Source of the DNA: Anadara kagoshimensis
Lineage: Eukaryota > Mollusca > Bivalvia > Arcoida > Arcidae
Length of the DNA: 64,000 nucleotides
Assembly: GCA_021292105.1 (NCBI GenBank)
Contig: CM037868.1
Coordinates: 29,462,403-29,526,402, forward strand
Direction: 5' to 3'
Part shown: one piece after another, positions 9,516 to 41,965 of the stretch
Layout: each line of letters begins with the position of its first letter
Numbering within the stretch: position 1 is the first letter of the stretch
The notes under the pieces: generated by a model
What the model was told of the DNA's origin: nothing
Database searches by the model: none
The model's input: only the letters and a program-made list of their open reading frames with translations
Made by a program: the position numbers and the translations under genes

Positions 9516-10538
9516 TTAATTTCTTTGAATTAAGGACATTTGAGCATTTTTAATCACTGAAGCTGGGGTGTGGATATATCTAGTATAACAATCTGAAGAC
9601 CACCTGCCAAGAGTTTTAATTAGATGGTCTTCAATTCTTGCTGTGGCTGCTGATGTAGCCCCACCCATTCTAAATGAATGACCACTATACTGCTGAGCAT
9701 CTATACCAATAGTAGTTAAGAGACATTTTAGTTCTGTTATGAAATATTCCCTGGTTATGGGACTTCCATCAAGCATGACAAATAAGGGTTTATCATTACC
9801 TTCATGCTTTTTATCTCTAATGGACAAATAAGCCTTTATGGCATTAACTGGGCATGTGGTATCTCCAGATGAAAATAGTTGAATTGAAATTCCTTTTCTA
9901 AAGGGGTCAGTTTTAGAAATTTTTAGCTTTAAAGATACCCTTCCCTCTTCAAATTTTAAATCATTATTTGTTATGTGAATAGATGGATCAAATGTAGAAA
10001 TATTATCACAAGTTATTTCTCCACATCTCAAAAAACCAAAAAATGCAGTTGAATATACCGCTGCTAATAAGGCATCTGTATGTTGTGACTGATACCCACG
10101 TTTGAGACGTTTGATTAATTTATCAAGAATGTTAAACGTAATCGGAAGTCTTACATTTTTTGTTGTTTGATTACATTTTTTGATGGCTGACATAATTGTC
10201 TTTAATCTATGAAATTCTTTCCCTGTATCAGATTCCAAGGGGTTCATGTATCCGGCTGCCAGGTAATTAAATCGTATCCCACAAAGGTACAATTTAATTG
10301 TGCAATGTTTTAAACTTAAATGCTTATGACAATGTGCCACAAAATATATTAATATATCTTCTGATACCGAAGGCAGATGTAATTGGCAAGGAATGTTGTT
10401 TAAATTTAGAAATGTTTTAAAACATTCAAAACCTGTGTTATAAGCATTCCTAGTTTTTGTAGAAATTGCTCTCTTCCATAAATCATTCACCGTGTTGGTG
10501 AGCTCCAAATTACTTCTCCGAGTTGTGGGCAAGTGCAT
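9516..10538 (-). CDS. Tyrosine recombinase of the DIRS-like element
   Basis: 340 residues, apparently full length. The N-terminal part (about 1-110) resembles a SAM-like core-binding domain with WKRAISTKTRNAYNTG. The catalytic part carries the four-residue signature. The first Arg is in FFGFLRCGEIT (about 170). The His and second Arg are in YSGHSFRMGGAT (about 290). The nucleophile Tyr is in GRWSSDCYTRYIHTP (about 315). The enzyme would integrate the circular DNA copy by strand exchange. The start ATG overlaps the end of the RNase H frame by 52 bases in a different frame, an overlap also seen in DIRS1-type elements. No inactivating change is visible. Confidence 0.93.
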   Translation of the reverse strand: MHLPTTRRSNLELTNTVNDLWKRAISTKTRNAYNTGFECFKTFLNLNNIPCQLHLPSVSEDILIYFVAHCHKHLSLKHCTIKLYLCGIRFNYLAAGYMNPLESDTGKEFHRLKTIMSAIKKCNQTTKNVRLPITFNILDKLIKRLKRGYQSQHTDALLAAVYSTAFFGFLRCGEITCDNISTFDPSIHITNNDLKFEEGRVSLKLKISKTDPFRKGISIQLFSSGDTTCPVNAIKAYLSIRDKKHEGNDKPLFVMLDGSPITREYFITELKCLLTTIGIDAQQYSGHSFRMGGATSAATARIEDHLIKTLGRWSSDCYTRYIHTPASVIKNAQMSLIQRN

Positions 10539-11383
10539 GGTTTCAAGTTTGCTTCGGGGACTAGCTCTCTGAAGCGTTCCATCTGAAATCGAGATAGAGA
10601 ATCTGCAATGCTATTGTCTAGTGTAGAAATATATTTAGATTTAAAAAAGAAATTGGATTTTGCAGCTACCCATGTTAATTTTCGCATAAGTCCCATGATT
10701 TCAATAGTTTTTGATCTACCTTTGTTTATTATTTCCACTGTTGCTTGGTTATCGCACATAAATAAAACTCTTTTTCCTATCCAAAGGTGTCCCCATAATA
10801 TTGCAGCCACCACAATGGGATAAAGTTCTAAAAATGCCATAGACAAATTTTTGCTCACTGATGGTAAATTACTAGGCCATGCACTACAAAACCACTGTTT
10901 ATTGTAATAGCCACCATATCCACATGTTGATGAGGCATCTGTAAATAACTTCATATCTATTGATGAAGTCATTTGTTTGTCATAAAACACGGATAAACCA
11001 TTCCATTGCTCTAAAAACTTCAGCCACATATATAAATCTTCTTTACACTCCTTGTTTAAATGAACATAATGATGCAGTTCTGTTACCGTAGTTGACAAAT
11101 TGATTAAATACGAAACAAAAGATCTACCAGGTAGAATTACTCGGCATGCAAAATTCAGATGACCCAATAACTGTAAAATTTCCCTCTTTGTACAGGAACG
11201 TTTTTGAATTATAGTGTGAATGAACTCTATTATCCTTGTAACTTTCTCTCTTGGAAGTCTAGCTTCCATCTTTTGTGTATCTAATATAATGCCTAAATAT
11301 TCAAGGCAACTCGTGGGGCCTTCTACTTTCTTTTCTGATAGAGGAATTCCTAATTTTTTGAATAACATAGTCATGATCGCCAT
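10487..11383 (-). CDS. RT thumb and RNase H of the DIRS-like element (frameshifted from the RT start)
   Basis: 298-codon open frame holding the end of the reverse transcriptase (LFKKLGIPLSEKKVEGPTS, then CLEYLGIILDT) and an RNase H domain. RNase H acidic motifs are visible as LFTDASSTCGYGGYY, AFLELYPIVVAA, LFMCDNQATVEIINKG and DNSIADSLSR. Together they supply the D-E-D-D type residues. The ATG at 11383 is probably not a true start. The reading frame is shifted relative to the upstream RT frame (12129-11371), and homology crosses the join at about 11380-11395. It ends EVIWSSPTR, overlapping the recombinase start. Confidence 0.88.
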   Translation of the reverse strand: MAIMTMLFKKLGIPLSEKKVEGPTSCLEYLGIILDTQKMEARLPREKVTRIIEFIHTIIQKRSCTKREILQLLGHLNFACRVILPGRSFVSYLINLSTTVTELHHYVHLNKECKEDLYMWLKFLEQWNGLSVFYDKQMTSSIDMKLFTDASSTCGYGGYYNKQWFCSAWPSNLPSVSKNLSMAFLELYPIVVAAILWGHLWIGKRVLFMCDNQATVEIINKGRSKTIEIMGLMRKLTWVAAKSNFFFKSKYISTLDNSIADSLSRFQMERFRELVPEANLKPCTCPQLGEVIWSSPTR

Positions 11384-12126
11384 GGACCGAAACCATTTTC
11401 AATGGTTTTATCAATTGTCAAAAAATCATCTAATAAATGTAAGATGTGATGTATTTCATATCTATTTTTTGCAATCCAACATACAGCTTGAGACAAATGA
11501 TCAAATATAAATGGACTGGATCTACATCCCATAGCCAATCTGTGTAAAACATAATATTTTTTATCCCACTTGATACAAAATAGAGGTAGTTGTTTTGGAA
11601 GGATTGGTAATAATTTAAAAGCATCTTGTATATCAAATTTACAAAGCTGTGCACCTTTACCCAAAGATTGGATGATGTTTATAGCATCATCAATTTTTAT
11701 GTATGAAAGGCTGCATTGTTCTTTATCAATTAAACTATTTATGCTGTATGTTTTTGAGTTATTATGGGGCGAGGATAAATCTATGATAAGTCTATGTTTT
11801 CCAGAATATTTTCCAGTAGCAACCCCAATCGGTGACACTCTGTACTTTTCAAATGGTGGTATTTTGAATGGTCCGAACATAAATTTTTTTTGTAATTCTT
11901 TGTGTAAAAGTTCATTAACGACATCTGGCTGAGATCTAGCCGAAACCAAATTTTTTAATTCTTTTTGTTCTAAGTCAGTGTCTGATACAAGTGTGTCAAA
12001 CCCATTCCTAAAACCACCACATAAATATGAAACAAAGTTTCTGTTTTTGTGAAATTGGAGTTCAGATTCCAACTGATTAACATTAATAGGTGTAGAGGGG
12101 ATTTCAAATTCTTTTGGTCGTGCCAG
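11371..12126 (-). CDS. Reverse transcriptase fingers and palm of the DIRS-like element
   Basis: Open from just after the gag stop codon, in the same frame, to a TGA at 11371. Motifs in order are KHRLIIDLSSPHN, then KFDIQDAFKLLPI (motif A, first catalytic Asp), then LHRLAMGCRSSPF, then HLLDDFLTID (motif C, with LLDD where many RTs have YxDD). It breaks after TIENGFGPWRS. The thumb continues in another frame from 11383, so one short indel near 11380-11395 separates the halves. No independent ATG lies upstream in this frame, so expression would need readthrough of the gag TGA. Confidence 0.88.
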   Translation of the reverse strand: MARPKEFEIPSTPINVNQLESELQFHKNRNFVSYLCGGFRNGFDTLVSDTDLEQKELKNLVSARSQPDVVNELLHKELQKKFMFGPFKIPPFEKYRVSPIGVATGKYSGKHRLIIDLSSPHNNSKTYSINSLIDKEQCSLSYIKIDDAINIIQSLGKGAQLCKFDIQDAFKLLPILPKQLPLFCIKWDKKYYVLHRLAMGCRSSPFIFDHLSQAVCWIAKNRYEIHHILHLLDDFLTIDKTIENGFGPWRS

Positions 12127-13362
12127 TCATTTCTGTGCTCCTGTGTTTGAACTAGCCATTGATTTGTTTATTTCGGATGAATTGCATATGGCTGCACTAT
12201 GCAACTTTGACTTGCATTTTAGACATATATGCAAAAGTGTGCAGGTTTTCCAACTGCATCCTAGATGAGAATTGAAATTGTTACAAATTTCTTGCCCCTT
12301 ATAACTTATCTTGGATCTTCCCTTTCTGTCTAAACTGATACTATTTTGACGAAGGTTCCTATTAAATTTCTTGTTTTTAACTTGAACATCTTGCAAATTG
12401 TTTTTAGTGACCGGATTTATACTGTTAAGTCCATACTGTTGAAGCATCTGTGAGATATAAGATGGTGTTACATTGTTAAACTGTGGAAAGGGTTGCCATT
12501 GCATTGGGCAGAAATGTGTGACATGGTCTACACCTTTGCATAACTCACAGTGAGTTATGTCTGCCCCAGCTGACACTAATTGTAATAAACCCTTATCAAC
12601 TATACTCCAGTCAACTTTAATCTGGAATTCTTCTAAAGCCATAGCTGCCTTAGCTGAGAAAAGTTTGTGATATTCATAAAAACATTTTGGGAAAACATTT
12701 GCAATTTCTATGATAGAGGCTTCATACCTGTCCAGTTCCTCTCTTCTTTCTGGGTAGGCCTTGGCCATGGTTCTTTTATATTTACCGAAGGCTGTCATGA
12801 ATTCATTAATCGATAATTGTCGGCTCAGACGAGGGTCTGGATGAATTTTTGTATTGTCAGAAATTTCAGACTTAGACTGGACAATTTCAAAATTAGGTAT
12901 TAATAATGATGCAAGGTTTACGTTCTTACCTTGAAGAATTTGCTTTTTGACAGATGGTGATATTATGTCCATGTGAGGTAGAAGCTCTGATGCCATACCA
13001 TTGTTTCCTATAAATCCTAATTGTTGTCCTAATCCTGAACTAGAAATGTGTGGCCTCTGTTCTGAAGCAGTACATGTATGGGCCTCGTTGCCATTTTTTA
13101 GCCTATTCATCGCTATGTTGAGTGGATTTACCTCGGTTAGATTTCTTTCTTGTGTTCCTTGGTTAGCCATAACTGATGACATCATAGTCCTGAAACTAGA
13201 CATTGTTTCACTAACCATATTGCACATGCTTTTTAAAACAGTTGATGTTGTGTCTTCCGAGTCCTCTGGAGGCGTAACACATGTGTTTTCCCTCACCATT
13301 GAATCTGATGGCTCTTGGTTTATAGTTGTTTCCTGTGTAGTAGGCCCTGTATCTGTATCCAT
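12127..13362 (-). CDS. Gag-like nucleic-acid-binding protein of the DIRS-like element
   Basis: 411 residues starting at the ATG at 13362 (MDTDTGPTTQ). The first 100 residues are Ser/Thr-rich and low in complexity. The middle (about 170-270) is helical, as in DIRS-order gag proteins. There are two C-x2-C-x4-H-x4-C zinc knuckles, at about 277-290 (CELCKGVDHVTHFC) and near the C-terminus (CLKCKSKLHSAAIC). Just before the second knuckle is a CCCH-like C-x8-C-x4-C-x3-H finger. This array is typical of gag-like proteins that coat the RNA template. The ORF ends in TGA followed by CTG, with the RT frame open immediately after. Confidence 0.88.
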   Translation of the reverse strand: MDTDTGPTTQETTINQEPSDSMVRENTCVTPPEDSEDTTSTVLKSMCNMVSETMSSFRTMMSSVMANQGTQERNLTEVNPLNIAMNRLKNGNEAHTCTASEQRPHISSSGLGQQLGFIGNNGMASELLPHMDIISPSVKKQILQGKNVNLASLLIPNFEIVQSKSEISDNTKIHPDPRLSRQLSINEFMTAFGKYKRTMAKAYPERREELDRYEASIIEIANVFPKCFYEYHKLFSAKAAMALEEFQIKVDWSIVDKGLLQLVSAGADITHCELCKGVDHVTHFCPMQWQPFPQFNNVTPSYISQMLQQYGLNSINPVTKNNLQDVQVKNKKFNRNLRQNSISLDRKGRSKISYKGQEICNNFNSHLGCSWKTCTLLHICLKCKSKLHSAAICNSSEINKSMASSNTGAQK

Positions 13363-13622
13363 AGAATCATTTGGGATCGTTATCCTTTGGGTATGCAGGT
13401 TCGCCAGATACAGCTGTTTTAACGTTGCTTTTGTGAAGAGTCATGGCAGTTTATTCCTAAGTTCCTTAACTCGTTCAGTAATTTCTGCCTAGTCCAATTG
13501 CTGGGATTCTGTGTGTCATATGGTGTTTTTTGCTTCCTGACACTTTTTCTTTGTCTTTCGGCCATGACTATATATAGTGGTAATATATTGATAAATTGTT
13601 TTACAAAAACTAATTTTTATAT
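13363..13622 (-). other. 5' leader of the DIRS-like element
   Basis: Unique sequence between repeat A1 and the gag ATG. It would hold the leader and possibly promoter elements. No clear TATA box was identified. Confidence 0.55.
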
Positions 13623-22622: not shown

Positions 22623-22905
22623 AAAAACCTAACATACTAATCCATGTCCGAATCGCAATCCAGAAGCAAAGTAAAAACTTTGAAACTGACAAGTTAGGTT
22701 AGGCACGTGAACTTCCAACAGAGAAGTGAGGCTGGGTGCTCCGGAAGGGTAAGCACCTCCTGTTTAGCTAGCTACACCCGCCACGTGTGTAATCAAAATT
22801 GTGTGAAAGGAACACGATACTATGAGACGTCAAATATATCCAGGGCAATCCTGGACACAGAGACATCAAAGACAATAAGTTCGATTTCCTGCCGAGTCGA
22901 ACATA
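22623..22905 (-). mobile_element. 5'-truncated retroelement 3' end
   Basis: On the minus strand it encodes FDVSVSRIALDIFDVS and a stop, followed by the same 3' UTR as 15472-15745, ending in AATCCATGTCCG-type tail sequence. The plus-strand frame through it is antisense noise. Confidence 0.85.
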
Positions 22906-22949
22906 AAATTAAAAGTAAAAACACCCTTTTCAATCCAGTGTTTGTCTAA

Positions 22950-24299: not shown

Positions 24300-24675
24300 C
24301 AAGTAGAGATAAGTATCAAGCATGGTCCATAGCCAAATCACAATCCCAAAAATTAACCACAAACATACCGGTCTATGTCCAAATCACAATCCCTAAAGTC
24401 AACCACAAACATACTGGTCCATGTCCAAATTACAATCCCAAAAGTCAACCGCAAACATACTGGTCCATGTCCAAATCACAATCCCAAAAGTCAACCACAA
24501 ACATACCGGTCCATGTCCAAATCACAATCCCAAAAGTCAACCACAAACATACCGGTCTATGTCCAAATCACAATCCCAAAAGTCAACCACAAACATACCG
24601 GTCCATGTCCAAATCACAATCCCAAAAGTCAACCACAAACATACCGGTCCATGTCCAAATCACAATCCTGATAGC
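24300..24675 (-). repeat. 46-bp minisatellite derived from a retroelement tail
   Basis: About eight copies of a unit holding GGTCCATGTCCAAATCACAA and TCCCAAAAGTCAACCACAAA. This is the terminal segment of the retroelement 3' UTR on the minus strand, amplified in tandem. A 46-bp period shifts frame at each copy and keeps all three plus frames open. No protein is implied. Confidence 0.93.
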
Positions 24676-28100: not shown

Positions 28101-31100
28101 ACATGCACGGTTGAAGAAATATTTTAAATTAAGGAAATTATGCAGACCGTTATATTTAAATATACTTAAATATATTTGATTAACATGAATTTTAAAGGTA
28201 CTTTTTGCTACTTTTACCTGTACAACCAGTTTTTGGGTTACCGATAAAACATTTTCTACATTGACATTGGTTATTTACACACTCGGCATTTCTACCACAC
28301 GGTCCGCAACATGGTACAGCTGAAAAGAAAGGAAGCTAATTTATTTTTAAGTGAAATATCATGTACTTGGCAAAGGAAAAAAGTTAGTTTATAAGTGAAA
28401 TAACATGTACTTGTGTACTTGGTCAAAGCCAATGCAACCAAGATCATATAACAATTCAGTTTAATTACACATTTCTTAATCACAGTTCCAAATTAAACGT
28501 CGACACTGGCAAAATTAAGTTAAACACGTGAAATCAAACGAGGGAAGTGAGACCGGGTGCTCCGGAGGGTAAGCACCTTAAAGTATACAACACTATTATG
28601 AAACTTCCGATTACTTAAGAAAATGACCAGTGCAGTGACGTGGTAATTGGAGTAAATAGAAAGTATATGGAAGCTCCAACCATTCATTCCTCTCACAAAA
28701 CAATGAACAAACAACCCCACATGCATACATGTATATTCATAATATAAGAAAACATTTAATTTTTTTATATGAAGTAAAAAGCAGGTTCACATTACATTTT
28801 GGCAAATTACAAAAACCACCGACGTCACAATGATTTGCACAACACCGAAAATACATTGGAATGACCCTAAAAGTAACATAGTTTGTTTAATAGTAAGGGT
28901 TTAAAAAAGAATATTCCTCTCGTTAGGTAGTTGAACATGCTTATCTGGAAACTCGGGAATCAGATGCAATCATGTGATCGCAAAAATTGACACTTGAGAA
29001 ATTATTTAAGGGAGTCTAGATAAACTAGTCCAACCCATAAAACCGGGAGATAACATTAATATTTTTACCTGTGCATGCGGTATTGGGATTTCCTGTAAAA
29101 CACCGTTTACATCTGCATTGGTTGTTGACACATTCTGCGTTAGTACCACATTTTCCACAACAGGGTATGGCTGAAATAATATGAGTTAAACTATTCTAAA
29201 ACAAGACCGTACATTTATGGACCTAAATCATACAACTGACGTTATTCCTATGGCTAACAATTTGTATTGCATTTGATTTAATTTGAACCGTTAGCATATA
29301 CAAAATCATGACCAAGGCAGGTTTAAAAAATCTTTGATGAAACAGATATTATATTGCATTCCAAATAGTAACCATCTCAGGTTTTATTGGAGATGTTGAT
29401 AGAAGCTTGCAATAAATAAAAGATAAATATTATTTCTATATTGCCATAATGTACATGTATTTCAAATTGCTATTCCTGTACATTTACGTATCTTTGTAAT
29501 AACAAACGTTTGAGATGATTTCCTTACAAATTTACATGGGAAATCTTTATATCATTGTACATAATATTCAGCCATTCTACATGCGACGCGAGTCTGTAAC
29601 TGTCGTCTATAATCAACGGATGTAAAATGTTTTGTTAAGTGTGGCGTCAGAGACAAAACATTTTCCATCAGATACGTCAAAATACAAAAGGATTACATAA
29701 CGTAATTTTAATTTCACTCCAGGTCTCTGGAATGTTACTGTAGAGTAACTCTGAAGACTAAATACTCCTGAATGTCTTTGTATAGACTCGATACTAAATG
29801 AAAAAGTTTAAATGATCAACACAAACATTCCAATCTATAAATAATATCAACAGGGTTATCTTATCTTGGTATATTGTTATTCTTCACATTACCTGCACAT
29901 CCAGTATTGGGATTTCCTGTATAACACCGTTTACATCTGCATTGGTTGTTGACACATTCTGCGTTAGTGCCACATTTTCCACAACATGGTATGGCTGTAA
30001 TTATAATTATTGAATTTCCTAAATATTTGCACAGTGTTCCTTATTATCGTATAAGGAAATATGTCGACCGTTATAGGAGGCGTAAAAACATTGTTTTGTC
30101 AGGTAAACAATGTTCATAAAATTATCTGCTTCTTAAATTTTAAAATTCATCAAAAACCAAAGCAATGCTTAATCGTTCAAAGTATTGCCATAAGTGGACT
30201 TGGTAAGATACATTTTTGTCTTTTTTTATTTCAACATCGTTAAAATATACATTTTTTTCTTAAATTTGTTTCAAGTACTACTGATGCGAAAGCTTATTCT
30301 GCAAAATTATCACGTTTAGTAATAAAAAATTTAAACATCAACAAAAAAAAAAATCGACATATAAATATTCCTACCTGTACAACCTGTCATAGGATTTCCT
30401 GTATAACATTGTTTACATCTACACTGGTTGTTTACACATTCGGCATTTCTGCCACACTCTCCACAACATGGTATTGCTAAAATTATACAAATAAATAAAT
30501 GGGTAAATAACTAAAAAAACTAGTCGGCACCTAAAGATGAACAAATAATAACTATAACCCTGACACCAACCCATTAAGTTATACTTTTGACTTTGGTATT
30601 TCTTGAATGGGTTCTGTGCAATTTATCGGTCTAATGTATGCAACGAGGGCAAAAAGCTGTGCTAATGAAAAAAAAAAAAAACGTTAACCACGTCCAATTC
30701 ACAAATCAAACTAACCAATGAACCTCAAACAGGTAATCCAGAAGTAATTCATGTTTAGCTAGCTAAGTAAGCTATATGTATGATTATTTCTTGTTTTAGA
30801 CTACAAAACTGCCACACTTACAAATACAGTGACCACTTCTGTCTTACCATTGGATGCACTTTAAAGATTTTATGGTTGCCAATAAGGTACATATACATTA
30901 CCTAATTAAAATAAAGTAATACCAAAGTTTTGTAACAGTTATAAGTTAGGAAGTGGGTCCTTCAATGATTTTTTAGACCATTTATGATTTCAAAATATGG
31001 ATGAATACCCAATATTTATGAATTCAGTCCGCAACATGGTATGGCTAAAATAGAACAAAATGAAATCTTTTAAATAAACTCCTTTAAAATGAATTGAATG

Positions 31101-34100
31101 TTAATTGAAAAGACATAGAAGCAATCGGGTGCTATATTATCATTATGCTTGCAGTTCTAAGTCCATTGAAAGCCTGGGGTGTTGAAGGAACGGGGGTTGA
31201 GGTTTGATTTTAATTTATTGATCTAAATATCTGCTTATCTCCTGGTGTTTTCCTGTTTGCCAATACTATGCTAAGTTATATATTCGTTAAAAGCTAATTG
31301 TGTAATACATGGATATAATCCCAGCAGGGACAATTGTCAGTAGTTAACTTCAAATTAAACTGCGATCGTGAAACATATTGTAAAGCTCAACATTCAAATA
31401 TTTAGGCATTTAAGTCGCGCAATTCCATATTATTGATGTAAAAGTCGAGCGCAAATTTTGTCATAATAATATGTCATAAAATTGCTGATAACTCGATGTT
31501 CCTTGTAATATTTGTAGAAATTTTCTAGGCGAAATTAATTTTCAAATACAGTTTTCATACATCGCAGTCAACATTAACCAGAATTATTTTCAAAAAGTAT
31601 GAAAATCATTATTGTCACATAGTTTTCTTGCGAAAGTTTAAAGCGTTCATCTATTGATATCACGTGTAAACCAACGTTAGAGTCACAAAGGGAATTGGTT
31701 TTTAATAAGGTAATACCTGTACAGCCAGTGGTAGGATTGCCTGTGTAACATCTTTTGCATTTGCATTGATTATTTACACATTCTGCATTTCTGCCACATT
31801 TTCCGCAACATGGTATTGCTGAAATTAAATGAATAAAAATCACGCTAAAATATATCAATCCAGAGCAAAATCCCAAAAGCAAACTAAAACATTTTTGAAA
31901 ATAGGGAAATAAAGTGAAACAAGTAAACGTAAATCAAAGGATATGAGACCTGTAGCTCCGACAGAGTAAGCACCATCTGCCTAGCTAGCTTTATACGCCA
32001 TGTGTAACATCAAACATGGTATTTCAAATATATGCATGGTAAATTTATATAGGGACATCATGCTTATTTATATTCATTTGTATAATGGTCTCGATAGTCT
32101 GCACACGTAAAGAACACAATAACCCACATGTAATATGACAACTAGTTGTAAAATCTGTAAAAATATGGATGTAAAAATATGACTGTAAAACTATTACCTG
32201 TACAGCCACTGTTAGGATTGCCTGTGTAACATGTTTTACACCTACATTGATTATTTACACATTCTGCATTTCTACCACATTTTCCACAGCATGGAATTGC
32301 TGAAAAAAATGAATGAGAAAATGAAATGGAACCTAAATACACCGGTCAATGTACAAAACAAAATTCCAAAAGCAAAGTTAAAATGCGAAAATTAAGAAAA
32401 CACGCAAACTTCAACCAGGGAAGTGAAACCAGGTGCTCTGGAAGTGTAAACACCCCCTGCCTACTGAGCTACCATCACACATATTTGTAACACAAAAGGG
32501 AAGTATGGGACGTAAATTACATCAAGGATAATTTTGTATAGATACATAATATTTATGTACTGACAGTTTGCACACTAAAAGAACACAATGACTCACATGT
32601 AATATGACAACTATCTGTAAAATCTGTAAAACTATGACGGACAGCGGATATAGATCTACACAATATTGATATAGTGTATTACCTGTACAGCCACTGTTAG
32701 GATTGCCACTGTAACATGTTTTACACCTACATTGATTGTTTACACATTCTGCATTCCTGCCACATTTTCCACAACATGGTATTGCTGAAATAAAAGAAGT
32801 CTGTTAGCTACTGCTCATTTCGTATATCCCCGCTTTTAACTTCAACAATTGACCGTAATTATTGAATAAATAAATCAAGTTGGTAAACAGGAAGTAAATG
32901 TGAAGTTAATCCCCCTCTTCTTCAAAGCGGGGGTATAAAATAATAAACTAAGTTGGTAAACAGGAAATAGATGTGAAGTACATCCCCCTCTTCTTCAAAG
33001 CGGGGGTATAAAAATAATAAACTAAGTTAATAAACAAGAAATAGATGTGAAGTAAATTCCCTCTTCTTCAAAGCGGGGATAAAAAAATAATAAACTAAGT
33101 TGGTAAACAGGAGGTAGATGACCGGCAACATCGGAATACTGCGGAATATAATGGGACCTCGCACTGAACTCAAAATACTTATGTATTACCTGCACAACCA
33201 GCGGTAGGATTTCCATTATAACACCGTTTACATCTGCATTGATTATTTACACATTCAGCATTCCTGCCACAGCTTCCACAACAAGGTATTGCTGCAATAA
33301 AATAAGAGGAAAACCTTACAAATCATTTGAATGACGTTATCTTTTCCCTAAACAACAAAGGAAAACACACGGTTCACACGTTATAAGACAGTTTTTTATT
33401 TTAACTCCCAACTATGACGGAAACGAGGTATAATGATACATAATATTGGTTTTGGATAAGTCCTAATGAAGGAAAAAACGTAAACTTCTACCAGGGAAGT
33501 GAGACCGGGTGCTTCAAAATGTCCAGTTCCTGTCTAGCTAGCAACCATCTCCATATTATGTAATATCACATGTAGGACGTCAAATACACTGTATATCTAC
33601 GTAGATATATCATATTTATTTATTCATAAAAAATGCCCGAAAGCCTGCATAAATTAGGAACATAATGGCCCACATGTAATATGAGAATTAGTTGTAAAAT
33701 CTCCTAATTATGACGGACACCGGTTATAGTTACAGTGTATATACAATGTTGATACAAAAAATTACCTGTACAGCCACTGTTGGGATTGCCATTGTAACAT
33801 CGTTTACATCTACACTGGTTGTTGACACATTCTGCATTTCTTCCACATTTTCCACAACAAGGAATGGCTAAAATAAAATGAAAAGATAAAGTGAAATGAA
33901 ACACAAATACACCGGTCAATGTACAAAACAAAATTCCAAAAGCAAAGTTAAAATGTGAAAAAGTTAGTAAAAATGTAAACTTCAACCAGGGAAGTGAGAA
34001 CAGGTGCTCTGGAAGTGAAGGCACCTGCTTCCTACTTAGCTACCACCCCCATGTGTAAAACAAAAAATGGAAGTGTGGGACGTTAAATATATCCAGGGTA

Positions 34101-37100
34101 ATTTTGTTTAGAGACTTACAGATGTATTTGTATAATGTTCTTGATACATGTAGTCTGCACAATAAAAGAACACAATGACCTACATGTACTCTTACAACTA
34201 GTTATAAATATACACATTATTGACATAGTGTATTACCTGTACAGCCACTGTTAGGGTTGCCACTGTAACATGTTTTACACCTACATTGGTTGTTTACACA
34301 TTCTGCATTTCTACCACATTTTCCACAACAAGGAATTGCTGAAATAAATGAATGAAAAAATGAAATGGAATGCAAATACACCGGTTGTAAAATCTGAAAA
34401 ACAATGACGGACAGCGGATATAGATATATACACTATTGATATAGGATATTACCTGTACAGCCACTGTTAGGATTGCCACTGTAACATGTTTTACACCTAC
34501 ATTGATTGCTCACACAATATGCATTCCTACCACACTTTCCGCAACATGGTATTGCTGAAATATAATGCAAGAACAACTAATACTTGGTTAATAGCGAAAT
34601 ATTTTCGCCCAAAAAACAACGAAAACAAAAGAATGGTTCAACTAATTGTCCACGCCTCAGACTTATGGCTGTATTAGCTATCCTAATTAAGAATGACACT
34701 GGACTGGATACTGCGTAGATAAAACTTTGTTCAGAGAGATAGTTTGGTAGTAAACTATGTTGCTTTTTGAACATTTTAGAAAATTAGGGAGAAGTTCTTC
34801 ATTCACGAATTTTAAATGGCTGGTTATATAATAGAGATTGTTAGATTTGAATATTAATGTGCGGTCAATTCGATGTTTTTTTCAACTCTACATCTGTTAA
34901 TTTTTTTAATTATACCTGTACAACCACTTTTAGGATTGCCTGTGTAACAACTTTTACATCTACATTGGTTGTTTACACATTCTGCATTTCTACCACATTT
35001 CCCACAACAAGGAATGGCTGAAATAAAATGGAAAGTAAAACAATTTACTTTTCATTTTTAAGCATTTATCGATAACTATGAGAATCAAGAATGAATGACA
35101 GTCTATAAATATAGACATTGAAAACCGAATGCCAAAGACCACACGAACGGTTAGTTAAATTATAAAATAGTATGATAATTTTGATAATTTTAGCCAATAA
35201 GATTAAATTATTGAATCAGTTAGATAAAATGGAAACATACGACAATTTGTTAATATCGATTGAAACAACAAAATTTCTTTGATAATTTATATATAACAAA
35301 TGGTTTACATGTTGACAGGTGAATAAAATACATACTCTAATACAAATAAAATTTACTAAATAAAATATGTTATATCGAAAATAACTAAATACAATGTGAT
35401 TGTTTCACATAGACCATGTACATAAACATTGTCTGAAGACACATTTAGCAATTAATGAACGTTTGCAGAAGAAGCATATATCAAAGTGGACATATTTTTA
35501 GAAGTTTCCGATAGGTAGAAACAAAATATTTTCTAAAACATACGTGTGCAGCTTGAATATGGGTTTCCTTGGTAACATGAGTTGCATTTACAACGGCTGT
35601 TACTGCAATAAGCATTGGTACAGCATTTACCGCTGCATGGTTCTAAAATAAAACCATAAAAATTAATGAAACACCTTGCCTTGTGGTGTTAAACATAATT
35701 TATGTTTGGTATTTCTATTTTAGTGATGAGAAAAAAATACATCTGCTTGTTCTGAAATGCATTCATTCATTTTTTTTAACATGCTTAATTTATATATTGT
35801 AACAAACTGTTTTTGATGTATATTTGCAGTATATTAGTTGAATCTAGTTGTAAATAAATTACTTGCAAAAATTAATATGATGCAATACACAGCACCCCAA
35901 CTGTTAATATGTTTATATAGATGTATGTTGATACTGAGTTTGTCAAATGAAACGCATATTTCCAAGAAATATTTCGAAATTGAACACGCTATTTGTAAAT
36001 AAAACGAAAGGTCTATCTTTAGATGCAATTTGAAAGATTTCTTTTTAACGCAAAATGCAAATATTCAAACCTTGAAGGTTCAAACACTCTGTAAATATGA
36101 GTTCTAACCTTAAGATGTTAATGTAGATATTAATTTTGTCTGCTATAGTGACTATTATATAGTCAATAAACATTGTAACTACTAGAAATACATAGACTTT
36201 AAAGCAAAGCAGAAAGTAAAGTAACCATAGATCATATCTTTTTATACCACTGGCTTGATATTTTTCTTATTCAGAGTTGGAACTCGAGGCGTCAAAATTC
36301 TTAATGAAAAGACGATTTCAATAGAGAAATGAACATCTCTACTATCTTATTGAAAAGATTTACCCTTAAGATTAAAAATTATCGTGCTCATGTTCCTCAA
36401 CACGTTTTAATTTTTTTAAATTAAAAATGAGAAATATGTTTATAAAACAAGAAGTGTATATTCATTCTTGTCATAAAATAAGAAGGTTAATTGAAGATCA
36501 TTATGTAGATATGTCAACTTACTTTAAAGATCATTATGTAGATATGTCAACTTACTTTAAAGATCATTATGTAGATATGTCAACTTACTTTTAAGATCAT
36601 TATGTAGATATGTCAATTTACATTGAAGATCAATATGTAGATATGTCAACTTACATTAAAGATCATTATGTAGATATGTTAACTTACTTTGAAGATCATT
36701 ATGTAGATATGTCAACTTACTTTAAAGATCATTATGTAGATATGTCAACTTACTTTAAAGATCATTATGTAGATATGTCAACTTACTTTTAAGATCATTA
36801 TGTAGATATGTCAATTTACATTGAAGATCAATATGTAGATATGTCAACTTACATTAAACATCATTATATAGATATGTCAACTTACTTTGAAGATCATTAT
36901 ATAGATATGTCAACTTACTTTGAAGATCATTATGTAGATATGTCAACTTACTTTTGTTCGACAACCAGGATGATTTCCTTGTTCCTGTGGTTCTGTAACC
37001 TGTAATTGAAGATCATTATGTAGATATGTCAACTTACTTTAAAGATCATTATGTAGATATGTCAACTTACTTTGAAGATCATTATGTATATATGTCAACT

Positions 37101-39153
37101 TACTTTGGAGATCATAATATAGATATGTCAACTTACTTTGAAGATCATAATATAGATATGTCAACTTACTTTGGAGATCATAATATAGATATGTCAACTA
37201 ACTTTGGAGATCATAATATAGATATGTCAACTTACATTGAAGATCATTATGTAGATATGTCAACTTACTTTGAAGATCATTATGTAGATATGTCAACTTA
37301 CTTTGAAGATCATTATGTAGATATGTCAACTTACTTTGAAGATCATTATGTAGATATGTCAACTTACTTTGAAGATCATTATGTAGATATGTCAATTTAC
37401 TTTGAAGATCATTATGTAGATATGTCAATTTACATTGAAGAGCAATATGTAGATATGTCAACTTACATTTAAGATCATTATGTAGATATGTTAACTTACT
37501 TTGAAGATCATTATGTAGATATGTCAACTTACATTTAAGATCACTATGTAGATATGTCAACTTACTTTGAAGATCATTATGTAGATATGTCAACTTACTT
37601 TGAAGATCATTATGTAGATATGTCAACTTACATTAAAGATCATTATATAGATATGTCAACTTACTTTGAAGATCATTATGTAGATATGTCAACTTACTTT
37701 GAAGATCATTATGTAGATATGTCAACTTACTTTTGTTCGACAACCAGGATGATTTCCTTGTTCCTGTGGTTCTGTAACCTAAAGTAAAAGCCAACAAAGG
37801 TTTTAAAAGTTTAGGAATTTTTACAAAATCATGAATGAAAAACAAAAAAAAAAAAAAAAAAACATACCAATTCATGTCTAAACCATAATCGTTATCATCT
37901 CCTGTTTGATTGAAAATATCCATCTAGTATATTTCGACGAAGTCTTCAATGTGACCACAAATATAAACGTACTAGCACTGCATCTTAAGTTGTGTTATGA
38001 AGGATAATTAAGCATTGTACTGTTGAGATATGTTAATTGTGGTCCTATAACTTCGCATATACAACATGACACTGTGTGACGCCATTACATTTAACAGCCG
38101 ATGAAAAAGAAGTGCGTGGAAAAACAAAAATGACAATAAATTTGTATCAGTATTTCATTTTTATTGGTGATTATAGATGAAATAAACGAAAAAATAAATA
38201 ATGATTGATAAGTCATCGCCAGAAATCAATAATCATTTTGATATTGCTCGTGGCTTGTAATGGATTTGACCGATGGTTTGTTTACATTAAAGATAAAAGT
38301 ACATAGTGTATTGCTTGCGTATACAATGTATCCATCCATACACAGCCGATGTATTGATTACGTCATATGTCGTTTACGCGCTGGACGACAATCATGGTTT
38401 GATAATGCAATTACAGTCATACCTGTATAAAGGACACCAATTGGAACCAGTAAAAGTGGTCTTTATGGGCAGGTGACAAATAATATGAATAAAGAACAAG
38501 TGGAATACAATTCTACCGGGCTTTATTTAACCATTGAACTGTCTAGAAAAGGCGTTTATAGTGCTATAACTTCCATTGCTGTGCAAAGCGAACTGAATAA
38601 CGCGCGTCATATCAAGAGAGTTCAATGCTTATATTTTTCAAAAATCTTATTTTTGTTTTTGAATCCTGAAATAAATTTAAACAGCTGTCCTGTACGACAT
38701 GCAATTCCAAGTGCTAGAACAGCCGATCAATGACGTCACGGGCATAGGCGTAAGCAAAAAATGAGTGACGTCACATTAGCAAATGTAATTATAGCCCTAT
38801 AACTTCATTTGGTTTCAATCAAACATCATACATGTAAATATAATACAATAAAGCATCAAAAGTATACATCTATATTAAAAGCTTTATCAATGAACATTTG
38901 TATTTTGATTAGATTTTACTTTTTTTTGAAATAAAACAAACTTTTTTTAAAAAAAGCTATCCTATGCGTAAAAGTTTGGTTATTTCGTAAACCACTGTGT
39001 GTGAAGGAGTATTCCTTTTTGTAATCTGAAATAATCTGGTATATTCTACTTTATTTTATTGATACTTGCTAAGTCTTCTGTTTGTATAAGTTCTATATGA
39101 CGTCTTCCTGTAACTTGTTCTTCTGAGGGTGTGACCTAAAATAACAATATACA

Positions 39154-40398: not shown

Positions 40399-41221
40399 AA
40401 AATAACCATTCTTCAAAAGAACACATCACATTCTTGGTTGCCTTCTTGAAAATATGATGGCTGTGTAGACGAATGCTTCCAGGAATATAAGATGCCACAC
40501 TCGCCGTAAGATAGCATAATCCATACTCCATTAACACTTTACTCAGTCCTATTTTGCAAGAGCTCACTCTACTCGAATTCAACTCATCCCTAGGTAGTAT
40601 AGTGCAACTCCACTCACATTACACTCATCCACATAAAACATCACATATTCCTCTCACTTTACACTCAACTCGCATTCCACTCACCTAGAAAGTATATTCT
40701 TACCATTCTTTTCATCCCTTTGTATACTAGTATCACTCCACTCACAATCCAGTCACCCACATATAACATAACACCACCCCATTCACATTAAACTCACAGC
40801 CCAAGATAGCATAGTATCACTCCACTCACAATCCAGTCACCCACATATAACATAACACCACCCCCCATTCACATTAAACTCACAGCCCAAGATAGCATAG
40901 TATCACTCCACTCACAATCCAGTCACCCACATATAACATAACACCACCCCATTCACATTAAACTCACAGCCCAAGATAGCATAGTATCACTTCACTCACA
41001 ATCCAGTCACCCACATATAACATAGCACCACCCCATTCACATTAAACTCACAGCCCAAGATACCGATGATAGCATTATATCACTCCCTTCTCACACACCT
41101 GCCCAGAAAAGAGTTTCGAATGATGTTCTTGAATATAGCCATAACTTCAAAACTTACATGTTCCGTCGGCAATTAACACAATACAAACACAAGTAACTAA
41201 AAAGAGGAGACTTATCTTCAT
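25125..41221 (-). CDS. Secreted cysteine-rich protein with 15 EGF-like modules (gene span)
   Basis: Reconstructed from splice sites: signal exon (41158-41221), basic linker exons (39960-40013, 37731-37778, and possibly 36952-36999), fifteen module exons from 35544-35642 down to 26071-26172, and a terminal exon (25125-25135). All internal exons begin and end in phase 1, so any may be skipped or duplicated without loss of frame. Summing exons gives about 569 residues, or 585 with the second linker copy. The usual module is CC-x2-C-x5-C-x4-C-x-C-x2-C-x8-C with a GNPxxGC end, which recalls EGF repeats of the CGxNAxC...GYxGNPxxGC type but has extra cysteines. The protein would be secreted. Function is unknown: adhesion, matrix, ligand-binding or defence roles are all possible. 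Confidence 0.8.
25273..25378. repeat. Short tandem repeat, about 30-bp unit
   Basis: Three to four copies of ACTCGGAGTTTTACAATCAT with CCTCA linkers, in the last intron of the modular gene. Confidence 0.75.
26071..26172 (-). CDS. Modular gene, module 15 (last)
   Basis: 102 bp, phase 1-1, between TATTACAG and GTGAGTT. Encodes QPCCGGCGLHAHCELGKC, then VCDTNCYGDPNKECK. All eight cysteines are present, but it is among the most diverged copies (GDPNKEC in place of GNPNSGC). Confidence 0.85.
26690..26785 (-). mobile_element. Internally deleted SINE
   Basis: A reversed tail (GGCGTTTAACGTCC) is joined directly to a reversed tRNA-like head (AGAGCACTCTACCAACTGAG, then CTACCGCAG). The body is missing. 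Confidence 0.7.
27160..27267 (-). CDS. Modular gene, module 14
   Basis: 108 bp, phase 1-1, acceptor TATTTCAG, donor GTTAGT. Encodes DRHCCNGGCGINAMCVNNRC, then HCKYCHYGDPQTECY. It has one extra residue between the CC pair and the third cysteine and lacks the usual Ile-Pro lead. Confidence 0.85.
27505..27740 (-). mobile_element. Retroelement 3' end in an intron
   Basis: A diverged copy: CATGATCAAATCGCAACTCA, CAACCAGGGAAGAAGTGTAA and an eroded coding end (TTTTTGAGGGCCTTTATAAG). Confidence 0.65.
28218..28319 (-). CDS. Modular gene, module 13
   Basis: 102 bp, phase 1-1, acceptor CTTTTCAG, donor GTAAAAG. Encodes VPCCGPCGRNAECVNNQC, then QCRKCFIGNPKTGCT with all eight cysteines. Confidence 0.9.
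28470..28610 (-). mobile_element. Retroelement 3' UTR fragment
   Basis: GAGGGAAGTGAGACCGGGTG, CTCCGGAGGGTAAGCACCTT, then an eroded coding end (ACTATTATGAAACTTCCGA). Confidence 0.65.
28790..28866 (-). pseudogene. Possible decayed module exon
   Basis: After an ACTTTTAG acceptor-like site, one minus-strand frame reads YFRCCANHCDVGGFCNLPKC. This recalls the first five cysteines of the module, but the phase does not fit and the second half is absent. It may be coincidence. Confidence 0.3.
29069..29170 (-). CDS. Modular gene, module 12
   Basis: 102 bp, acceptor TTATTTCAG, donor GTAAAAAT. Encodes IPCCGKCGTNAECVNNQC, then RCKRCFTGNPNTACT. Confidence 0.92.
29893..29994 (-). CDS. Modular gene, module 11
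   Basis: 102 bp, acceptor AATTACAG, donor GTAATGTG. Almost the same as module 12 (IPCCGKCGTNAECVNNQC, RCKRCYTGNPNTGC), suggesting a recent pair. Confidence 0.92.
30375..30476 (-). CDS. Modular gene, module 10
   Basis: 102 bp, acceptor ATTTTAG, donor GTAGGAAT. Encodes IPCCGECGRNAECVNNQC, then RCKQCYTGNPMTGCT. Confidence 0.92.
31029..31044 (-). pseudogene. Truncated module exon relic
   Basis: An intact acceptor (CTATTTTAG) is followed by CCATACCATGTTGCGGA, the exact start of a module exon. Homology then stops. The other 86 bases and the donor are gone. Confidence 0.75.
31717..31818 (-). CDS. Modular gene, module 9
   Basis: 102 bp, acceptor AATTTCAG, donor GTATTA. Encodes IPCCGKCGRNAECVNNQC, then KCKRCYTGNPTTGCT, close to the consensus module. 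Confidence 0.92.
31920..32080 (-). mobile_element. Retroelement 3' end in intron
   Basis: GTAGCTCCGACAGAGTAAGC, TGCCTAGCTAGCTTTATACG and an eroded coding end. It occupies the same intron position as the copies at 32345 and 33905. Confidence 0.65.
32198..32299 (-). CDS. Modular gene, module 8
   Basis: 102 bp, acceptor TTTTTTCAG, donor GTAATAG. Encodes IPCCGKCGRNAECVNNQC, then RCKTCYTGNPNSGCT. Confidence 0.92.
32345..32540 (-). mobile_element. Retroelement 3' end in intron
   Basis: CCGGTCAATGTACAAAACAA, CAACCAGGGAAGTGAAACCA and GGTGCTCTGGAAGTGTAAAC. It matches 33905-34100 closely, flanks included, so the two were copied with their exon. Confidence 0.75.
32683..32784 (-). CDS. Modular gene, module 7
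   Basis: 102 bp, acceptor ATTTCAG, donor GTAATACAC. Encodes IPCCGKCGRNAECVNNQC, then RCKTCYSGNPNSGCT. Confidence 0.92.
32866..33115. repeat. Minisatellite, about 72-bp unit
   Basis: Three full units and one partial unit with AAACTAAGTTGGTAAACAGG and CCCCTCTTCTTCAAAGCGGG, inside an intron. Confidence 0.88.
33190..33291 (-). CDS. Modular gene, module 6
   Basis: 102 bp, acceptor TTATTGCAG, donor GTAATAC. Encodes IPCCGSCGRNAECVNNQC, then RCKRCYNGNPTAGCA. Confidence 0.92.
33480..33610 (-). mobile_element. Retroelement 3' end in intron
   Basis: CTACCAGGGAAGTGAGACCG, GGTGCTTCAAAATGTCCAGT and CTGTCTAGCTAGCAACC. Confidence 0.65.
33766..33867 (-). CDS. Modular gene, module 5
   Basis: 102 bp, acceptor ATTTTAG, donor GTAATTTT. 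Encodes IPCCGKCGRNAECVNNQC, then RCKRCYNGNPNSGCT. Confidence 0.92.
33905..34110 (-). mobile_element. Retroelement 3' end in intron
   Basis: Near copy of 32345-32540 (CCGGTCAATGTACAAAACAA, CAACCAGGGAAGTGAGAACA). It lies at the same distance from its exon. Confidence 0.75.
34237..34338 (-). CDS. Modular gene, module 4
   Basis: 102 bp, acceptor ATTTCAG, donor GTAATACAC. Encodes IPCCGKCGRNAECVNNQC, then RCKTCYSGNPNSGCT, the same as module 7. Confidence 0.92.
34453..34554 (-). CDS. Modular gene, module 3
   Basis: 102 bp, acceptor ATTTCAG, donor GTAATATC. Encodes IPCCGKCGRNAYCVSNQC, then RCKTCYSGNPNSGCT. The intron to module 4 is only 114 bp, much shorter than the others. Confidence 0.92.
34916..35017 (-). 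CDS. Modular gene, module 2
   Basis: 102 bp, acceptor TTATTTCAG, donor GTATAATT. Encodes IPCCGKCGRNAECVNNQC, then RCKSCYTGNPKSGCT. Confidence 0.92.
35544..35642 (-). CDS. Modular gene, module 1 (variant)
   Basis: 99 bp, phase 1-1, acceptor TTATTTTAG, donor GTATGTTT. Encodes PCSGKCCTNAYCSNSRC, then KCNSCYQGNPYSSCT. Eight cysteines remain, but the adjacent pair has moved: CC-x2-C becomes C-x3-CC. It is the first module after the linker region. Confidence 0.85.
35643..36482 (-). other. Intron of the modular gene
   Basis: AT-rich intron sequence between module 1 and the minisatellite. Nothing recognised. Confidence 0.5.
36483..36951 (-). repeat. 33-bp minisatellite carrying splice donors, block 1
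   Basis: About 14 units. On the minus strand each is GTAAGTTGACATATCTACAT followed by AATGATCTTCAAA. The array begins exactly at the donor of the linker exon copy at 36952-36999. Most units keep AAA|GTAAGT, a strong donor consensus. Confidence 0.95.
36952..36999 (-). CDS. Modular gene, duplicate linker exon (copy b)
   Basis: 48 bp, identical to 37731-37778, with acceptor TCAATTACAG and donor GTAAGT. In phase 1 it encodes YRTTGTRKSSWLSNK. It may be spliced after, instead of, or not with copy a. All choices keep frame. Confidence 0.55.
37002..37730 (-). repeat. 33-bp minisatellite carrying splice donors, block 2
   Basis: About 22 units of the same repeat, starting at the donor of linker exon copy a. 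Plus-strand reading gives an 11-residue MSTYFEDHYVD-type repeat and minus-strand reading gives SKLTYLHNDLQ. The minus frame is continuous with the linker exon for about three units, until a TAA near 37635. Confidence 0.95.
37731..37778 (-). CDS. Modular gene, basic linker exon (copy a)
   Basis: 48 bp, phase 1-1, acceptor TTTACTTTAG, donor AAAA|GTAAGT. Encodes YRTTGTRKSSWLSNK after the split codon. It has no cysteine of its own. The composition is rich in Arg, Lys, Ser and Thr and resembles the exon at 39960-40013. Use of a donor in the minisatellite would add 11 residues per unit. Confidence 0.6.
37779..39065 (-). other. Intron of the modular gene
   Basis: Contains an A run (37843-37861), a faint retroelement tail (37862-37915) and a repeat-like stretch (CCTGTATAAAGGACACC) at about 38420. 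No exon is supported. Confidence 0.5.
39066..39135 (-). pseudogene. Probable decayed linker exon
   Basis: Acceptor TATTTTAG, then a phase-1 frame reading HTLRRTSYRKTSYRTYTNRR. It shares SYRT and the basic character with the other linker exons. The length, 70 bp to a weak GTATCA donor, breaks frame, so it is probably unused. Confidence 0.4.
39155..39206. repeat. (AG)n microsatellite
   Basis: About 25 uninterrupted AG dinucleotides in an intron. Confidence 0.97.
39960..40013 (-). CDS. Modular gene, first basic linker exon
   Basis: 54 bp, phase 1-1 if the acceptor is TTAATAG and the donor is GTATGTTG. Encodes YRRRSYRTGRTRGLWRK after the split codon. It aligns with the later linker (YRT...W..K), giving a short highly basic stretch directly after the signal peptide. 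Confidence 0.5.
40030..40345 (-). mobile_element. Reversed SINE
   Basis: The reversed tail (GGGGTTTTTCGTCCCAGTCA) is followed by a body and a reversed tRNA-like head with the B-box complement GGGAATTCGAACACACGACC and an A-box complement near 40330. Confidence 0.75.
40350..40396. repeat. (GAT)n microsatellite
   Basis: About 15 GAT units next to the SINE head. Confidence 0.97.
40725..41072. repeat. Minisatellite, 84-bp unit
   Basis: Four copies of a unit with ATCACTCCACTCACAATCCA, CCCACATATAACATAACACC and TTAAACTCACAGCCCAAGAT, in intron 1 of the modular gene, close to the signal exon. Confidence 0.93.
41158..41221 (-). CDS. Modular gene, signal-peptide exon
   Basis: Starts at the ATG at 41221 and encodes MKISLLFLVTCVCIVLIADG, then T, plus one base of the next codon, ahead of donor GTAAGTTTTG. 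It has a hydrophobic core of about 15 residues and a likely cleavage near ADG. About 47 of 64 bases match the C1q gene's first exon at 62460-62523. Confidence 0.85.
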
Positions 41222-41639: not shown

Positions 41640-41965
41640 AGTGAAAAATTGAAATTTTGATATATATCTATATTACAATCCGTAAACAAAGTAAAAAATG
41701 TCAAGTTATGTAAAACATGTTAACTCCCACCAGGGAAGTGGCGTAGAACACCTGGCGGGTAAAGCTCGATCAGAGAATAATTAACAAATAGAAGCGTCAA
41801 CCGAAGCAGTACTGCTTATCAATGACACTAGATAAAGTAAGTTTCAGTTGCACCTGGCCTTACTTCCTTGGCGGAAGTTCACTAAACTTAATTTGCCAGT
41901 TTTTATTTTTTTTTACTTTGCTTTTTGGATTGTGATTTGGCCATGGTCTAGTGTGTCTGGTTTTT
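41640..41965. mobile_element. Two retroelement 3' ends in inverted orientation
   Basis: 41670-41760 is a minus copy (ACTCCCACCAGGGAAGTGG). 41848-41965 is a plus copy (CACCTGGCCTTACTTCCTTG, then TTTGCTTTTTGGATTGTGAT). Confidence 0.7.

Follow-up and report, generated by a model that had tools for sequence, protein, structure and literature searches.

A 33-bp minisatellite with a splice-donor motif in most units, beginning at a predicted duplicated 48-nt exon of a candidate secreted cysteine-rich-repeat gene in Anadara kagoshimensis

What is a long tandem array of splice-donor motifs doing in the first intron of a predicted gene? The question is raised by a 33-bp minisatellite in a 64,000-nt stretch of Anadara kagoshimensis DNA (the window; contig C12, C12:29462403-29526402), which was analysed together with the rest of the genome (1.115 Gb searched, 36 contigs). 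The array lies on the minus strand of the window, the strand of the gene, between a signal-peptide exon and the first of a ladder of cysteine-rich exons. On balance, and with moderate confidence, we read it from its sequence and position as a 5′ splice-site region, belonging to a young, gene-specific exon within the first intron of a gene for a secreted protein of cysteine-rich repeats.

Along the minus strand from 37778 to 36490, the locus consists of a 48-nt segment (L1, 37731-37778), 22 units of 33 bp (block 1, 37005-37730), the five bases TACAG (37004-37000), a second 48-nt segment (L2, 36952-36999) and 14 further units (block 2, 36490-36951). All 36 units are 33 bp long and follow one another without gaps or indels, in register. 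L1 and L2, which we call the linker, are identical in sequence; each is preceded by AG and runs at its 3′ end into AAAA|GTAAGT. The repeat thus begins exactly at the donor of both linker copies, as an earlier note on this DNA had proposed. The unit can be written as AAAGTAAGT followed by 24 bases, and the 36 donor 9-mers comprise 25 of AAAGTAAGT, 6 of AATGTAAGT, 3 of AATGTAAAT and one each of AAAGTAAAT and AAAGTTAGT. GTAAGT is present in 31 of the 36 units, starting 19 of the 22 in block 1, so the same note was right that most units repeat the donor; the remainder of the window contains 25 occurrences (10 plus, 15 minus). TTGAC stands just 3′ of the donor in 34/36 units. In this place it matches the consensus for a branch site.

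Block 1 and the TACAG that follows it make up the full 731-nt predicted intron between L1 and L2 (GTAAGT...TTACAG). The predicted acceptor of L1 is TTTACTTTAG, and that of L2, CTTCAATTACAG, is formed by the last block-1 unit plus TACAG; TACAG and the bases before L1 have only AG in common. Units 1-3 are collinear with 23-25, and 21-22 with 35-36, so that the blocks correspond at either end, as expected after a single tandem duplication followed by gain or loss of units. Since the blocks would then be one event duplicated, the presence of the donor in both gives no independent support. No match to the array unit was found among viral contigs. Arrays on contigs C9 and C15 were considered as paralogous and rejected, having other periods (mainly 36, 60 and 30 bp) and no match to the linker, signal exon or modules below E 0.01.

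The reading frame gives the linker its significance. The coding part of the signal-peptide exon (41158-41221, minus strand) encodes MKISLLFLVTCVCIVLIADGT and ends in phase 1 with a single base T before its donor, CAT|GTAAGT. The first cysteine-rich exon, EGF0 (35544-35642, minus strand; EGF-like by eye), begins with AA. Joining these two exons directly creates a T|AA stop (...ADGT*). Inclusion of the linker, predicted as a 48-nt exon of phase 1-1 encoding C-YRTTGTRKSSWLSNK, instead gives the junctions T|GT (Cys) and A|AA (Lys), reading ...ADGTCYRTTGTRKSSWLSNKKPCSGKCC..., and a frame that stays open through EGF0 and 12 more modules. Because the terminal T of the signal exon and the AA of EGF0 make skipping break the frame, at least one linker copy would be obligatory. 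By this frame logic, the 48-nt segment is likely an exon, as it fits a symmetric phase-1 exon.

The same logic limits which donors could be used productively. With a unit length divisible by three, the choice of donor keeps the frame for three donors in each block of the window copy: donors 1, 2 and 3 have the same donor sequence and add 0, 11 and 22 residues. The earliest in-frame TAA of block 1 lies in unit 3 (37632-37664), leaving donors 1-3 alone in frame, and unit 3 of block 2 (36885-36853) also has an in-frame TAA. The earlier estimate of about three units in frame before a TAA in each block agrees with this. The rule attached to it, that a donor n units downstream adds n × 11 residues and keeps phase 1, holds for donors 1-3 and fails beyond them at the in-frame TAA. 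The suggestion that array length tunes protein length does not hold for the window copy, in which the unit-3 TAA caps the extension at +22 residues per block.

A whole-genome search located a second, sister copy of the gene on the same contig, at a distance of 187 kb (C12:29676000-29705999). It has the signal exon, an L1 identical at 48/48 positions, an L2 with one change (Thr to Ile) and the first module, and T|AA is retained in both copies. Its array contains 18 + 10 units, versus 22 + 14 in the window copy, with GTAAGT in 25/28 and no indels. The first in-frame TAA is reached at unit 16 in block 1 and at unit 8 in block 2, which leaves 16 and 8 in-frame donors. This higher cap despite fewer units indicates that unit sequence, not unit number, sets the cap. 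The introns of the two copies diverge by 0.7-1.7% near the linker and by 4.8% in the next intron, and with such low divergence the sister copy is either a recent segmental duplicate or an unmerged allele. A whole-genome DNA search with a 70-bp probe returned four linker copies among its best candidates, two of them in the sister gene copy. By blastn, all other matches to the 48-nt segment in the window were of at most 12 bases.

We then asked which exons in the intron could restore the frame, defining a rescuer as a single exon of 18-220 nt that does so with an acceptor score of at least 3 and a donor score of at least 5. In the window intron, all six single-exon rescuers come from the linker, three from L1 and three from L2 (donors 1, 2 and 3 of each), and at these cut-offs no chain of two exons that bypassed the linker passed. 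When a cassette had to reach the scores of L1 and of L2, thresholds that were chosen after those scores were known, only one rescuing acceptor remained elsewhere in the window, that of a 21-nt piece at 41751; over the roughly 121 kb of strand, this is 0.04 per 5.4 kb.

A third gene, about 50 kb from the window gene and with a duplicate of its own, is an older paralogue. Its signal exon, a homologue of that of the window gene, ends in A and its first module begins AA, giving an A|AA (Lys) junction that is open without a linker. Its EGF0 homologue is 80-81% identical to EGF0. Over the signal exon and EGF0, the comparison of the two genes gives dS of 0.8-1.1 and dN of 0.14-0.16 (pooled dN/dS about 0.15), so both exons are under purifying selection. 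Six signal exons were read to their last base: the two paralogue copies end in A, the two copies of a neighbouring C1q gene (described below) in G, and only the two copies of the window gene in T. The terminal T is probably derived. It would be tolerable only if the linker or another exon were included, or if the gene were dead.

The corresponding paralogue intron measures 3.7 and 4.0 kb in its two copies, one of which has a 159-bp repeat of two units. No 33-bp array was found in the introns of either copy, and comparison of the window gene introns with the paralogue introns gave no match at E 0.1. The best Smith-Waterman score of the linker in these introns was 12 (p 0.19-0.23), which is at chance level. 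Pieces of the same 48-nt length from EGF0 and the signal exon reached 28, 26 and 22 in the region of the paralogue gene, where shuffled sequences scored at most 14, 15 and 17. One EGF0 piece reached p 0.01 in the paralogue introns, so that small p values arise there without expected homology.

The array could instead be an ordinary intronic minisatellite, the 48-nt segment being no exon and the GTAAGT of the repeat unit a matter of chance, with another small exon used in its place or both gene copies recently dead through T|AA. We regard this as unlikely, while giving it real weight. Minisatellites are common here, with 11 arrays of unit length at least 26 bp in the 64-kb window by our count, and 33-bp units drawn at random from the window outside the arrays (n = 20,000) carried an equally strong donor in 2.8% of cases on one strand and 5.8% on either strand, and GTAAGT in 0.7% on one strand. 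Given the 11 arrays and the 5.8% rate, a donor within a minisatellite is unsurprising by itself; it is its placement that needs explaining. Chance would have to deliver together a donor, the gene strand, a position at the array edge, a symmetric phase 1 and avoidance of T|AA, when rescuing cassettes this strong are expected at 0.04 per 5.4 kb. The dead-gene version also meets with nothing broken: every module tested retains AG, GT and an open frame (13 of 13 in the window, 15 of 15 in the sister copy). Intact modules and splice sites throughout both tested sets speak against a gene that died long ago.

Several results weigh against our reading of the linker as an exon or qualify it, and some of them favour the ordinary-minisatellite alternative. 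Rescuers of lesser quality are plentiful: in the remainder of the window, the basic cut-offs (3, 5) gave 34 rescuing acceptors, including 8 true ladder exons, or about 1.5 per 5.4 kb, so that a rescuer at this level is not rare in itself. In the sister copy, two of ten single rescuers and 20 two-exon chains at these cut-offs leave the linker unused. At laxer cut-offs (1, 3), the linker is unused by 10/16 single rescuers and 84 two-exon chains in the window, and by 14/22 and 167, respectively, in the sister copy. Pseudo-exons of linker quality also exist elsewhere in the window: with both linker cut-offs applied, again set once the linker scores were known, 29 pairs of acceptor and donor outside the array pass. 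Of these, 17 are open in some frame and three, the signal exon being one, are symmetric and open in phase 1. The donor-like unit CCGGTATGT of a 46-bp minisatellite (24324-24668, minus strand) outscores the donor of the 33-bp array. The 48-nt segment has no stop in any of its three frames, so its openness says little, and its GC content of 0.42, reached by 21% of other 48-mers, is no test. The linker was found in no other gene and thus lacks cross-gene conservation. The 60 intron bases before L1 are as unchanged between the two copies as L1 itself, so no constraint on L1 can be read from the sister copy.

The splice sites were scored with matrices and a U1 end taken from general consensus, and with a local acceptor matrix for which 14 exons of this gene served as the training set. 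The L1 acceptor ranks in the top 1.6% of the window's AG sites by the local matrix and in the top 2.1% by the general one. Counted with the adverse results are an L2 acceptor that is weak on the local matrix, where 6.8% of AG sites equal or better it (3.3% on the general one), and a middling consensus array donor, with a predicted U1 pairing energy of -5.6 kcal/mol and A as the base before GT. Its strength is matched by 6.6% of other minus-strand GT sites. Among 14 module donors, 13 pair at -7.2 to -10.7 kcal/mol and that of EGF0 is weaker (-2.1 kcal/mol). The signal-exon donor, at -5.5 kcal/mol, is similar to the array donor. A donor-like unit, GCTGTGAGT, is likewise found on the minus strand in an 84-bp minisatellite at 40728-41062.

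Under our preferred reading, in which the array belongs to a young exon and provides its 5′ splice site, unit 1 would supply the real donor of the 48-nt exon and the later units would be near-identical spares. Exon and array would have been tandem-duplicated together, so that block 1 came to form almost the entire intron between the exon copies, with the last block-1 unit and TACAG providing the acceptor of L2; this order of events is our interpretation. If the gene is transcribed and the exon included, as we infer, the bulk of splicing would proceed from the exon-proximal donor. Donors 2 and 3 may be used at a low level, adding 11-residue steps of the SKLTYLHNDLQ type, and donors past the third would lead to a premature stop and a nonsense product in the window copy. 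Both linker copies, each 48 nt and of phase 1-1, could possibly be included together, with removal of the 731-nt intron between them. A 48-nt exon is short by usual standards, and 81 and 114 nt are more usual sizes. For this reason, exon definition might favour donors 2 and 3.

These sizes bear on the possibility that several in-frame donors are used as a functional series, with selected isoforms in which the linker has 16, 27 or 38 residues, or combinations of these. Donors 1-3 are identical and all keep the frame, the 81- and 114-nt exons would be of more usual length, and the sister copy offers 16 and 8 in-frame donors. The caps themselves, 3/3 versus 16/8 in very similar genes, suggest weak constraint, and the array varies between copies much as other minisatellites do: a 73-bp array has 3.4 units in the window and 5.5 in the sister copy. 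The 84-bp array has 4.0 units in the window copy and is absent among the sister arrays listed. Across the 64 units of both copies, the first six donor columns hold 8 of 94 variants versus 17.1 expected by length, and the nine donor columns together hold 28 versus 25.6 expected. We therefore see no clear sign that the donor is better conserved than the rest of the unit, as the six-column deficit does not hold over nine columns and the units are not independent. Such a selected series appears improbable. The similar variability of other minisatellites and the lack of clear protection of the donor columns lead us to favour a neutral array beside a real exon, in which variation in array length would probably be neutral.

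Two further roles for the array were weighed. As decoys, unused spare donors would sequester U1 or compete, slowing or regulating the splicing of intron 1. There are many equal donors in a row (31 of 36 with GTAAGT), and those of block 1 are predicted to be partly accessible (mean unpaired probability 0.21-0.62). Array number differs between the copies without any other sign of constraint, and we consider a decoy function very improbable. The plus strand carries a 157-codon open frame of 11-residue repeats (MSTYFEDHYVD; 36999-37472), opposite the gene strand, and its open state would fit a coding sequence for a repeat peptide. Any stop-free 33-bp unit yields long open frames, and the array sits inside a predicted minus-strand gene; we give this explanation almost no credence.

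A more far-reaching version of the young-exon reading is that the minisatellite created a new exon and then locked it in. Inclusion of the exon would have allowed the last base of the signal exon to drift to T, after which skipping became fatal and the exon obligatory. The gene would be left with dozens of near-equal copies of the donor and one intron made of repeats, and mutation of the array would directly change how long the protein can be and how much nonsense product is made. We put this forward only tentatively.

Parts of this arrangement have precedents. The human IFI6 (6-16) minisatellite lies at an exon boundary, has a 12-nt unit and makes in-frame additions of 4 residues. It is described as providing multiple splice donor sites. 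Two of its downstream repeat units are reported to act as donors, with three mRNA species as the outcome (PMC4526556). The array resembles it in having units that are candidate alternative donors, in the share of units with a donor consensus (31/36 in the window, 25/28 in the sister copy) and in a unit length divisible by three. If the 48-nt segment is an exon, as its frame suggests, the donor-like site at which the array starts would be a further parallel. It differs in its 33-bp unit, in an internal 48-nt exon that is present twice, in having two blocks, one of them nearly a whole intron, and in the capping of in-frame donors by the unit-3 TAA; donor use here is predicted from sequence. Among the literature matches listed, judged by titles and abstracts, IFI6 alone stood out as a donor-supplying repeat, which cannot show that others are absent.

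Intron gain by tandem duplication across an exon-intron boundary is also known (PMC4974935). Here too, the duplicated segment would supply the GT and AG of the new intron; unlike the reported case, the duplicated block would be a predicted exon plus a minisatellite, and the new intron would consist of 22 units and 5 bases. For TERT, a third report proposes that the intronic 38-bp variable-number tandem repeat (VNTR) VNTR6-1 is a splicing switch acting through an expandable G-quadruplex (PMC11830802). The 33-bp array is likewise an intronic repeat of variable number and similar unit size that could affect splicing. It differs in that none of its 36 units, junctions included, contains GG when read along the gene strand, and its candidate action is through donor sites. 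The multi-donor minisatellite, intron gain by duplication and the intronic VNTR splicing switch are thus already known, and what is particular to this locus is that the predicted exon is duplicated, that the intron between its copies would be built of repeats, that stops cap the extension, and that a single base would lock the exon in.

Downstream of EGF0, the host gene continues on the minus strand with 12 further cysteine-rich exons (28218-35017; 102 nt, phase 1-1, AIPCCGKCGRNAECVNNQC...) and two more modules at about 27253 and 26173, the latter being the thirteenth module tested above. The modules downstream of the array resemble AIPCCGKCGRNAECVNNQCRCKTCYSGNPNSGCT and relatives and, like EGF0, have an EGF-like look to the eye. 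Their search against Pfam gave one match, at E 0.24, which is not credible, and against PDB none; among ten minus-strand ORFs selected from 39.7-55.8 kb, Pfam likewise matched a single one, at E 0.26. At 31028-31067, an acceptor and six codons (AIPCCG) of a cysteine-rich exon are followed by unrecognisable sequence, as in a decayed ladder exon, and this fragment is also found in the sister copy. The module matches listed, 99 in number, all lie on contig C12. Several adjacent ones fall within a 499-aa open frame at C12:34275847-34277202 (plus strand) that is seemingly intronless, in contrast with the ladder of one exon per module.

The signal exon is homologous to a minus-strand exon at 62523, MKISHLFFAICGCVVLTVEGT (84 bp, 77%, E 2e-11). 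Exons of a C1q domain (Pfam C1q, E 1e-9 and 2e-6) follow it shortly downstream. The C1q gene and the ladder gene appear to share this MKIS... signal-peptide exon, with homology stopping soon after the donor, and thus to be a case of exon sharing between unlike secreted proteins. The sister region also carries at least the signal exon of the C1q gene. A scan for first exons at 35660-56800 in phase 1 alone gave five candidates on the minus strand and none on the plus strand. Over the whole window and all phases there were 18, two of which are the MKIS exons, alike; the other 16, including an ATG at 37875 reading into L1, were dismissed as chance, repeats or AT-rich read-through.

Elsewhere in the window, minus-strand open frames at 9516-13492 look by eye like a DIRS-type retroelement, with a reverse transcriptase and RNase H and a tyrosine-recombinase-like protein. 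A dispersed repeat with a shared translation of approximately FHQGSEAGCSGRVSTSCLASYT... occurs at 15599-15405 (minus), 22698-22949 (plus) and 53082-52855 (minus), and similar-looking pieces of it are present in ladder introns at 32397, 33473 and 33968.

If our reading is correct, the locus would be a natural experiment on donor choice by the spliceosome, with dozens of near-identical sites spaced 33 nt apart and two very similar gene copies that differ in array length and in which donors are in frame. It would also clearly illustrate how a minisatellite can form an intron, and how a single base in the neighbouring exon can make a young exon indispensable.

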